Shown here: piece after piece, positions 8,887 through 11,733 of the stretch
Layout: the number at the start of each line of letters is the position of its first letter
Position numbering within the stretch: the first letter of the stretch is position 1
Assembly (NCBI GenBank): GCA_012862575.1
Contig: BLSF01000058.1
Coordinates: 220,666-284,665, forward strand
Source of the DNA: Parietichytrium sp. I65-24A
Taxonomy: Eukaryota > Sar > Bigyra > Thraustochytrida > Thraustochytriidae
DNA: 64,000 bases
Direction: 5' to 3'
Translations under genes and position numbers: made by a program
The notes under the pieces: model-generated
What the model saw: the letters and a program-made list of their open reading frames with translations, nothing else
The model's database searches: none
What the model was told of the DNA's origin: nothing

Positions 8887-9855
8887 ATGACGGTCTCGGA
8901 AGAACTCGCTGCCGTGGAGGACAGGCGACAGTCTCTGCTGGCTGCCAAGTTGAACCTGGAGAAAGCTCGCGTTGAGCAGGCCAAGCACGCAAATGTGTAC
9001 GCCAAGACTGGCGCCGAGAAGGTCAGGGCGGCTGGACAAGAGATACAGCTTGAATCCACCAAGAAATGGTACAACTTTTGGGAGAAGGCTTCCCGAGCTC
9101 CGCGCAACTTGACTCTCAGCACTGGAAAGTCCATGGCCTGGGACCAGGCAGCAAAGCAGATGCTCGCCGAAGTTAAGACAGCGTTCATCGATGTTCCTGC
9201 CAACATGATCAAGATCACCAAGGACCTCCCTGTTGAACCACGGAATGTTCTTCTCACTCAGATCCGCGCTGAGCAACAAGGAAGCAGCAACTCTAAAGTG
9301 GTTTACATGCGCGAGCACTACACATTCCGCGGAGGCAAGACTTACTTGTTTCATCAGGTCAAGTCGTATGGCCCATCCATGATCGCACCACGCGATGCTG
9401 CCGTGTTTCTCACCTGGGAGGAGGCTGAGGACGGTGTGATCACCGTCGCTGCCCGTTCTGTTGACGGAAGCATTCGCGCAAAGGCTCTTCCAAACGTTGT
9501 TCGTGGTGCTGTCATGTTGTTTGGCATGCAAATCAAGCCAAAAACTGTCGTAAAGTCCAAGTTCTTGGTTGGTGGCTCCGAGGTCGAAGGCAGTGAGGTT
9601 ACAATCATCTCCGAAGCAAAGTTGAACGGTCTTGTGCCTGGCTTTGTCGCCAAGGAGCTTGTTCGCATGGAACTGTCAGCCTATCTTGCAAATGTGGAGT
9701 CTGTCTCTGCGAAGCTAGTCAGCGAAGGCGTCCTCGAAGATATGATCAACAAGTACGTGGTCTATCCAGACGGCCCAGACGAGGACGACGAGGACGAGGA
9801 GGAGGATGAGAAAGCTGGAGCTGACGAAGAGCCAGCGCCTGCAGATGACAATTAA
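8887..9855 (+). CDS. START/SRPBCC-like lipid-binding protein with acidic tail
   Basis: This is a 322-residue soluble protein. Residues about 1-60 are predicted coiled-coil, with charged heptads (VEDRRQSLLAAKLNLEKAR). Residues about 75-280 resemble a START-type helix-grip domain as seen in stramenopile proteins: a central RDAAVFLTWEE strand, a VAARSVDG strand, and a C-terminal helix region LNGLVPGFVAKELVRMEL that would close the lipid pocket. The last 30 residues are almost entirely Asp/Glu (DEDDEDEEEDE). No signal peptide or membrane segment is visible. The assignment rests on pattern resemblance and not on a signature motif, so the domain is moderately supported and the ligand unknown. The gene is convergent with the prolyl hydroxylase downstream. 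Confidence 0.6.
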   Translation: MTVSEELAAVEDRRQSLLAAKLNLEKARVEQAKHANVYAKTGAEKVRAAGQEIQLESTKKWYNFWEKASRAPRNLTLSTGKSMAWDQAAKQMLAEVKTAFIDVPANMIKITKDLPVEPRNVLLTQIRAEQQGSSNSKVVYMREHYTFRGGKTYLFHQVKSYGPSMIAPRDAAVFLTWEEAEDGVITVAARSVDGSIRAKALPNVVRGAVMLFGMQIKPKTVVKSKFLVGGSEVEGSEVTIISEAKLNGLVPGFVAKELVRMELSAYLANVESVSAKLVSEGVLEDMINKYVVYPDGPDEDDEDEEEDEKAGADEEPAPADDN

Positions 9856-10235: not shown

Positions 10236-11733
10236 TCAACTGAATGCTCCCGTGCATCCCCACAAATTACTTTTCACAAAGTCGTGCTGTAGAAGAGAAG
10301 CGTCAGAAATTTTTTGAGAGAGAGCTGGTCTCACATCCTCGAAGAATGAAACTTACACTATGAATCCAATGGTTGCTCGCATACTTGACCCCCTTGACGG
10401 GAGGAAGCGCCGCGTGAATTGTGCGCGGATCTTGCTTATACGGGTCCTCGTCCAGAACGCTTGGCCACAGGACAGCACGGCCGGTTTTAGGCTTTACTTT
10501 GATTCCGTCCAAAGCTTTCGGGAAGTGTGTCTCTCCGCCTTCTGCAACATCCGACAAATAAAGGAAAAAGGTCAGAATTCTAGGGCCTGCGGGGTCAAGA
10601 TCATTCGGGGACATGTCATGATGCAATTTGTAGAATTCGCCATTGTGGTACTGAAGCAGCTGGAATGATTCAAAGTTTTCGCTTGGGACGCGCGTGACCT
10701 CCTCGATGCGTTGCGAAACACCTTGGACTATTGGATCGTCAGCGCACTCGCCTGTACACCACGTGTTAGAGGAAGTTCGAGAGAGAGAAATTGTTTTCGT
10801 CGTTTCGCCTCTCTCATTGCGGGCTCCAGTTTCGCTACTTCGTTCAAAGCCCAGCTCCTTGCCCCAATCAATTAAAACACGCGCCTCTTCTGAAGAGAGA
10901 AAGTCCTCAAACACAAGAATCCACGGTCCTTCCGGGGGACGGCTCGCGACCTGAACGGGATATTTGGCCACAATCTCTTCGAAAAGGGCGTTCAATGAGC
11001 CAGGCTGCCACACATGCGCTTCGCTTATGTTCAAGAAGTTTCTGTCGCAGCGTTTAGTAGGGTCTAAGAGCTCGCACGCTCTGCAGGACCGTGGGCAATT
11101 GACAATCATCCAACCAGGGTTGACTTCGCACTCTCCCTGAGCTGCGTACCTCGCGCAGCGTTTTGGCATTCTGTCCGAACAAGTGCCACCGTCCGACTCT
11201 GCCCATCGTTTGCTCCCTTTTTCCAGCACGATCCTGTCTTTTTCGCAATCGACACTCGCCACTTCTCCAACGAAATCTCGTGTTCCTTCTGTGGCGAAGA
11301 GAAATCGGTGACCTGTGAAGGTGCGCATGCTCTCGGAGGTTTGAAGGGAAGGAATCACTTGCACCCATTCATCTTCATCTTTCTCCCAGAACACAGACAC
11401 CGGTCTGCCCCACTCATTCACAAACACGACATCTTTGGGAAGGTCCATTTCGCACTCTTTGCGGTGCTCTTTTCCATCACTAGCCACTTTGCTTGCCTCT
11501 ACCGGCGACTGGAAGAACTCCAATGCCTGACCACCTTTGTCACCTAACACTACGCTTGAAACTGCGACGGCAGCGGCTGCAACGATCGCCCAGAGCCACC
11601 ATTTGCTGCCTTCAGACTTCCCGTCGCCTTTATCTGTCGCTTCCACTTCTCGAGAATGATCATCTTTTCCCTTTGAGGAATCTTTCGCTTCTTCCACCTT
11701 TGGAGAATCTTTGGCTTCCATCTTCGTTTCCAT
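10236..11733 (-). CDS. membrane prolyl 4-hydroxylase with pVHL-beta-like and ShK domains
   Basis: This is a 475-residue two-exon gene. Exon 1 is 11733-10357 and exon 2 is 10286-10236. The 70-nt intron (10287-10356) has donor GTAAGT and acceptor CTACAG; splicing adds HDFVKSNLWGCTGAFS, the usual P4H ending. Order: charged cytosolic residues 1-44; one membrane helix 45-63 (type II); residues 101-170 resembling the beta domain of pVHL (VVFVNEWGRPVSVFW, then RTFTGHRFLF); a six-cysteine ShK module C185-C220; and a 2-oxoglutarate/Fe(II) prolyl 4-hydroxylase domain from about 270. Iron ligands are H371, D373 and H440, and K450 would bind 2-oxoglutarate. P4H enzymes of this kind hydroxylate proline in secretory proteins in the ER/Golgi. 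Catalytic assignment is firm. The pVHL-like module is an inference from sequence pattern. Confidence 0.9.

Follow-up and report, generated by a model that had tools for sequence, protein, structure and literature searches.

A thraustochytrid membrane-anchored prolyl hydroxylase fused to a probable homologue of the pVHL beta domain, a candidate hydroxyproline-binding module

The gene and its protein

The window analysed here is a stretch of 64,000 nucleotides on contig C58 of the Parietichytrium sp. I65-24A genome, which was scanned as a whole (42.5 Mb in 172 contigs). On its minus strand, at 10236..11733, lies a gene for a protein of 475 amino acids in which a putative membrane anchor, a VHL-beta-like module and an ShK domain precede a prolyl hydroxylase (P4H) catalytic domain. 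The gene model consists of an open reading frame and one inferred intron: the minus-strand frame 11733..10303 resumes past a 70-nt GT..AG intron near the 3' end of the gene (10287..10356, minus strand; splice sites picked by eye on the genomic sequence rather than from transcripts), the removal of which links the P4H C-terminus to HDFVKSNLWGCTGAFS and the stop at 10236. A long open reading frame on the plus strand (8887-9855), with a charged C-terminal tail, adjoins the P4H gene. Inspected by eye, the other long open reading frames of the window displayed no functional link to the P4H gene, and across the 64 kb Rfam models gave no hits at their gathering thresholds and ARAGORN predicted no tRNAs.

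Close to its N-terminus, the protein displays a hydrophobic stretch of 19 residues (residues 46-64, 11542..11598 on the minus strand, as for all features below; Kyte-Doolittle mean 2.11) that is a likely type II membrane anchor. The VHL-beta-like module, delimited by Pfam, alignment and profiles, extends over about residues 99-173 (11215..11439) and is followed by the ShK domain at residues 184-220 (11074..11184; PF01549, E 1.1e-6, 29.6 bits for a cut-off of 20.9). The catalytic domain (2OG-FeII_Oxy_3) occupies residues 357-458 (10360..10665; Pfam E 5.8e-14, 53.3 bits). Its translation contains an HxD motif formed by His371 and Asp373 (10615..10623), His440 (10414..10416) and Lys450 (10384..10386), which we take from general knowledge of P4Hs to be, respectively, iron ligands, the distal iron ligand and the expected 2-oxoglutarate ligand. 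The initial annotation of this DNA had proposed a complete P4H motif made of these four residues, accompanied by an ShK module and a membrane anchor in the same chain; the residues and the ShK module are indeed present, and the hydrophobic stretch is a likely anchor. Compared as a whole with Pfam at E values up to 10, the protein matched nothing besides 2OG-FeII_Oxy_3 and ShK, and VHL was absent from the listing. Prolyl hydroxylation activity is predicted for this enzyme from its domain match and motif, and its presumed topology would make it a type II membrane-anchored P4H of the secretory pathway.

Several known P4H architectures provide points of comparison. The catalytic domain is akin to that of plant and algal-type P4Hs, its closest solved relative by sequence being the P4H of PDB 2jig (E 4.6e-23 over residues 270-459), presumably from Chlamydomonas. 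Plant P4Hs also possess a type II anchor; the window protein differs from this type by the addition of ShK and VHL-beta-like modules between the anchor and the catalytic domain. The alpha subunit of collagen P4H carries, beside its P4H domain, a separate peptide-substrate-binding domain that could confer processivity. This N-terminal domain, which we take to be PF08336, was not found by Pfam in the window protein. Animal P4H-TM (PDB 6tp5) is likewise a transmembrane P4H and matches the window protein weakly in sequence (E 1.6e-6), but an EF domain is described there (PMC7948501), where the window protein has a VHL-beta-like module.

Related modules and the proteins that carry them

Pfam and module-only searches of the same genome retrieved at least nine further pocket-bearing modules, at least ten with that of the window, the search taking exons separately and scoring only the best candidates. 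These modules are designated below by their contigs. The window module used as a query led to C30 and C67, at an E of about 0.05 each. The C67 module led to C127 (1.4e-16), C37 (5.4e-4), C13 (0.0042) and C21 (0.028) and, reciprocally, to the window module (0.068) and C30 (0.093), while C37 returned C67 (3.1e-4) and C127 (0.02) in its turn. From C13, the modules of C30, C67, C49 and C5 were reached; from C30, two modules on C49, namely C49a (2.3e-17) and C49b (in two pieces), together with reciprocal matches to C13, C127, the window module (0.027) and C67. The Pfam VHL model alone identified C5, C30, C67, C21 and C13 in the genome, the first four above cut-off, and had no match in 14 named control genomes. 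Two degenerate relatives, C14 and C13b, were uncovered with the C21 module, and the C5 query revealed no further modules in the same genome.

Searches of other collections returned no relative of the module. This was the case for viral contigs, queried with the C67 module and short peptide pairs in a search that needs near-exact short peptides and reaches close relatives only, and for genome contigs, queried among others with the C30 module and again within reach of close relatives only. Four plasmid records were listed for the C67 module, with a best E of 0.8 taken as chance, and a phage search with a whole oxygenase-module protein matched four records, over the oxygenase part only.

The proteins carrying the module are diverse in architecture. 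Four are Pfam-matched P4Hs: the window protein, in the order anchor-module-ShK-P4H; C37, in the order anchor-module-P4H (P4H match of 38.8 bits, two internal stops being read as introns); and C67 and C127, both in the order anchor-P4H-module. In the long proteins of C30, C49a and C49b, the module is C-terminal to a 2OG-oxygenase-like domain, and the two C49 copies lie about 5 kb apart. The catalytic part of the C30/C49 proteins had no 2OG hit in Pfam and no hit in the PDB, and its hhalign comparison with four P4Hs of the same genome aligned the HxD stretch at a non-significant E of 0.055. The label 2OG-oxygenase-like rests on its match, over 95% (E 1e-10), to a Synechococcus phage protein annotated as a 2OG-Fe(II) oxygenase; this phage protein itself matches PF13640 below cut-off (E 0.011). 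The name 'ferrochelatase' given in PHROGs to the family matching the C30/C49 domain was rejected; it looks like a mislabel. In Synechococcus phage S-SCSM1, a gene annotated as a 2OG oxygenase (103925-104620) adjoins an annotated GDP-fucose protein O-fucosyltransferase.

The module also occurs outside oxygenases. On C13 (C13:106478-109711), it stands at the C-terminus of an aldo-keto reductase (E 6.9e-32). This reductase combines a hydrophobic stretch at its N-terminal end with a C-terminal RDEL, and it may be an enzyme of the ER lumen, maybe working alongside P4Hs. C21 encodes an AdoMet decarboxylase/spermidine synthase, as identified by Pfam, with a C-terminal module in which the Trp/Thr/His pocket is kept. 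No ER signal was seen on C21, the start of which is outside the frame read, and this counts against a purely secretory role for the module. The degenerate C14 and C13b proteins were called AdoMet decarboxylase-spermidine synthase fusions by eye and by similarity, and their C-terminal extensions resemble that of C21 (26.3 and 25.0 bits). The C5 protein had no Pfam match above cut-off besides VHL, and one match below it. Overall, seven of the ten pocket-bearing modules reside on oxygenases or 2OG-oxygenase-like proteins, four of them on P4Hs matched by Pfam.

A survey of P4Hs for this module had been recommended in the initial annotation, which also held that absence from close homologues would speak against the proposal. 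Within the same genome, nine loci have an oxygenase part matching the window protein (C58, C39, C51, C37, C67, C127, C8, C3 and C16; C17, which matched by its ShK only, was excluded), and the module is found on four of them, placed N-terminally or C-terminally. The same four are the module-bearing members of the 19 places matching PF13640, and a profile scan of the fetched oxygenase loci with about 1.5 kb on either side detected the module on none beyond these. The closest P4H paralogue of the window protein, C39 (48% identical), has the order anchor-ShK-P4H and lacks the module, so that the absence held to speak against the proposal does apply to this one homologue; three other P4Hs carry the module. 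ShK is present on C39 and also on C51. On C17 (222258-225374), a frame that appears glutathione peroxidase-like by eye continues into an ShK-like stretch that is similar to the ShK of the window protein (46% over 40 residues). The occurrence of the module at either end of the P4Hs and in two oxygenase groups suggests that several fusions took place.

Relationship to the pVHL beta domain and its hydroxyproline site

Taken in isolation, the window module matches the Pfam VHL family (PF01847) below cut-off (14.6 bits, E 0.033, cut-off 21) and is collinear with profile positions 9-64. When nine modules, all but C49b, were submitted in the same way, VHL was listed for seven, above cut-off for four of them (C67, C30, C21 and C5) and below it for the C58, C49a and C13 modules, and was unlisted for C127 and C37. 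For the isolated C13 module, PH_22 (E 0.001, also below cut-off) ranked before VHL (E 0.0025). A profile of eight modules, from which C5 was omitted as it had been found by Pfam, produced 44 rows against 177,635 PDB sequences; the top 24 were all pVHL (E 1.0e-4 to 4.1e-4) and the first unrelated row came at E 0.064. With a six-module profile that included C5, pVHL accounted for 24 of 27 rows (E 4.5e-4 to 6.4e-3), the next row being at 0.068. The four P4H-fused modules alone yielded a profile for which all 23 rows were pVHL, but at E values of 0.64-2.

In a leave-one-out analysis of the nine modules, each omitted module and the human pVHL beta domain outscored all 2000 shuffles. The window module scored 35.8 bits when omitted, for 27.3 bits for human pVHL and 12.2 bits for the best shuffle; across all nine runs, the best shuffle reached 13.0 bits, the weakest omitted module (C5) 21.6 bits and the lowest human score 23.2 bits. 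The modules were gathered by their mutual similarity and pVHL was not used in gathering most of them, which makes pVHL the more independent target. Models predicted by single-sequence AlphaFold2 were of low confidence: a 91-aa version of the window module had a pLDDT of 58.8 and a 75-aa version a pLDDT of 70.3, the latter mostly made of strands with one helix before Thr138. Foldseek returned zero matches at E <= 0.001 for both, and VHL was not among the best 50 of 60 and the best 50 of 207 matches of the two models. Such weak models do not support the VHL fold and do not exclude it either, because they were built without an alignment. The eight-module and leave-one-out profiles uphold the VHL-beta resemblance that had been claimed for residues 101-170, with limits slightly extended to about 99-173, and we consider with high confidence that the module is homologous to the beta domain of pVHL.

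Hydroxyproline is accommodated in pVHL by Trp88, Tyr98, His110, Ser111, His115 and Trp117, its hydroxyl bonding to Ser111 and His115 and its carbonyl to Tyr98 (PMC9528729); most of these residues are described as nearly invariant across animals (PMC6650433). The window module is collinear with the human domain (PDB 1lm8/1lqb) over about 59-61 residues, with Trp88 and His115 identical, Ser111 replaced by Thr, Trp117 by Phe, and the positions of Phe76 and Asn78 kept. The equivalent residues are Trp116 (11386..11388), Thr138 (11320..11322), His142 (11308..11310) and Phe144 (11302..11304). In an alignment of nine modules with human pVHL, 61 columns with at most two gaps were scored, the human row being excluded. 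The median pairwise identity of the modules is 21%, and exactly three of the 61 columns are invariant: Trp88, Ser111 (Thr in 9/9) and His115. Column 117 holds Phe in eight modules and Trp in the ninth, column 112 is Phe or Tyr, and columns 76 and 78 have one deviating module each. At column 98, Gln is found in 6/9 modules and Tyr in none, and column 110 is variable and devoid of His. The pocket proposed in the initial annotation is thus preserved at Trp88, His115, Ser111 (as Thr) and Trp117 (as Phe), and Tyr98 is lost. The same three columns remained invariant when one member per close pair was kept, and the tenth module, C49b, which is split by an inferred intron, retains W, T, H and F.

The rank-sum of the contact columns 88, 98, 111, 115 and 117 was attained by 2 of 200,000 random column sets, and the presence of all three invariant columns within the six pocket columns has a hypergeometric P of 5.6e-4. 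These values are supportive only, since the test assumes exchangeable columns and the conservation of Trp and His has many causes. The degenerate relatives are informative in this respect. C14 keeps Trp88 and has Val at the Ser111 position and Thr at that of His115; C13b has Phe at the Trp88 position and Asp at that of His115. With the nine-module profile, C14 scored only 9.7 bits and C13b was unlisted. As both retain the extension without the pocket, the residues concerned may be dispensable for the fold. Bacterial VHL-beta proteins may often display a similar W...T-x3-H-x-W pattern; if they do share it, the signature would predate any link with P4H.

Possible roles of the module

At the level of sequence comparison, what has been demonstrated for the module is its homology, the conservation of its motif and its association with oxygenases. 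That it binds hydroxyproline is plausible, at a little under an even chance. The overall reading that we favor, an anchored P4H with a fused pVHL-beta homologue acting as a hydroxyproline-binding module, strikes us as an evenly balanced proposition. In this mechanism, the module would bind a 4-hydroxyprolyl residue with the ring resting on Trp and the hydroxyl held by Thr and His, the bound substrate being one already hydroxylated by the window enzyme or by a sister enzyme. A repetitive, proline-rich substrate would thereby be kept near the active site, leading to processive or feed-forward hydroxylation; alternatively, hydroxylated clients might be held at the ER/Golgi membrane. Contrary to a hydroxyproline reading, pocket-intact modules are carried by the aldo-keto reductase and by the AdoMet decarboxylase/spermidine synthase, for which hydroxyproline is no evident ligand, and the conserved W, T and H could be structural or devoted to another ligand.

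Because two unrelated metabolic enzymes carry the module and Tyr98 is lost, the main rival is that of a true VHL-beta fold serving as a general binding add-on for proline-rich peptide in its unmodified form, for a glycan or for some other partner, with Trp, Thr, His and Phe serving the fold or that ligand. We regard it as a serious possibility, held at clearly less than even confidence. The absence of His110 as well as Tyr98, the presence of the same residues on the C13, C21 and C5 proteins and the report of a VHL-beta protein in a bacterium (PMC9002001) are all in keeping with such an add-on. It accounts less readily for the concentration of seven of the ten pocket-bearing modules on 2OG oxygenases or 2OG-oxygenase-like proteins, and for invariant columns that coincide with hydroxyproline contacts instead of being scattered over the core; the persistence of the C14 and C13b extensions without a pocket also argues that these residues may be unneeded for the fold. 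Moreover, the hydrophobic N-terminus and RDEL ending of the C13 reductase may place it in the same ER lumen as the P4Hs.

A hydroxyproline reader might also operate in trans, holding or sorting the clients of other P4Hs for retention or quality control rather than feeding its own active site. The location of the module at either end of the P4Hs, which leaves its geometry to the active site unfixed, is compatible with this scheme, as is its presence on proteins without P4H, including the RDEL-ended reductase; but it has no known client, and the finding of four P4H fusions within a single genome suggests an advantage in cis. We find this scheme rather improbable. The last alternative, in which a beta domain with no kinship to that of pVHL resembles it by chance or convergence, could invoke the sub-cut-off Pfam score of the window module and the lack of VHL among the best Foldseek matches of the single-sequence models. 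It is opposed by the leave-one-out profiles, the PDB-wide profile search and the reciprocal matches between modules, and appears highly improbable.

In the animal PHD-pVHL-HIF system, too, a VHL-beta domain is paired with a prolyl hydroxylase, but the animal partners are separate proteins with ubiquitination as output, whereas here both reside in one chain. Unlike pVHL, the window protein has neither Tyr98 and His110 nor an alpha domain, and its module is fused to a membrane-anchored oxygenase. The lack of an alpha domain for Elongin C binding, advanced in the initial annotation, agrees with the Pfam analysis of the protein. Across the genome, the best match to VHL_C (PF17211) reached 20.1 bits (E 0.027), under the cut-off of 22.4. 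It covers 29 residues of a 39-aa frame (C56:245062-245148) in an apparently intergenic region where other short frames run in either orientation, and on visual inspection it is reminiscent of the pVHL alpha domain. Over the 9.9 kb around it, the nine-module profile scored 3.0 bits at best and revealed no VHL-beta module. Being below cut-off, in so short a frame and with no module nearby, this match was treated as probably due to chance and set aside as a ligase component. We see no sign that the window protein recruits a ubiquitin ligase.

The HIF/PHD/VHL pathway has been treated as an animal pathway and cited as absent in protists, a VHL homologue being nonetheless reported in one choanoflagellate (PMC9618697). 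Among the open-licence PMC papers listed by our literature searches, none dealt with a recurrent VHL-beta/P4H fusion in a protist; domain databases may already show this architecture. It is tempting to speculate, though we hold it as doubtful, that in unicellular eukaryotes the VHL-beta fold already served to read hydroxyproline beside prolyl hydroxylases, often as a fusion with them and outside of any HIF or ubiquitin context, and that the animal PHD-pVHL couple is a later, separated version of this ancient alliance of writer and reader. Some of the natural modules keep the pocket and others have lost it, and together they constitute a small set suited to binding studies. If the module does read hydroxyproline, a writer and a reader of this modification would be united in one enzyme, and this would offer a testable answer to the origin of hydroxyproline recognition by pVHL.
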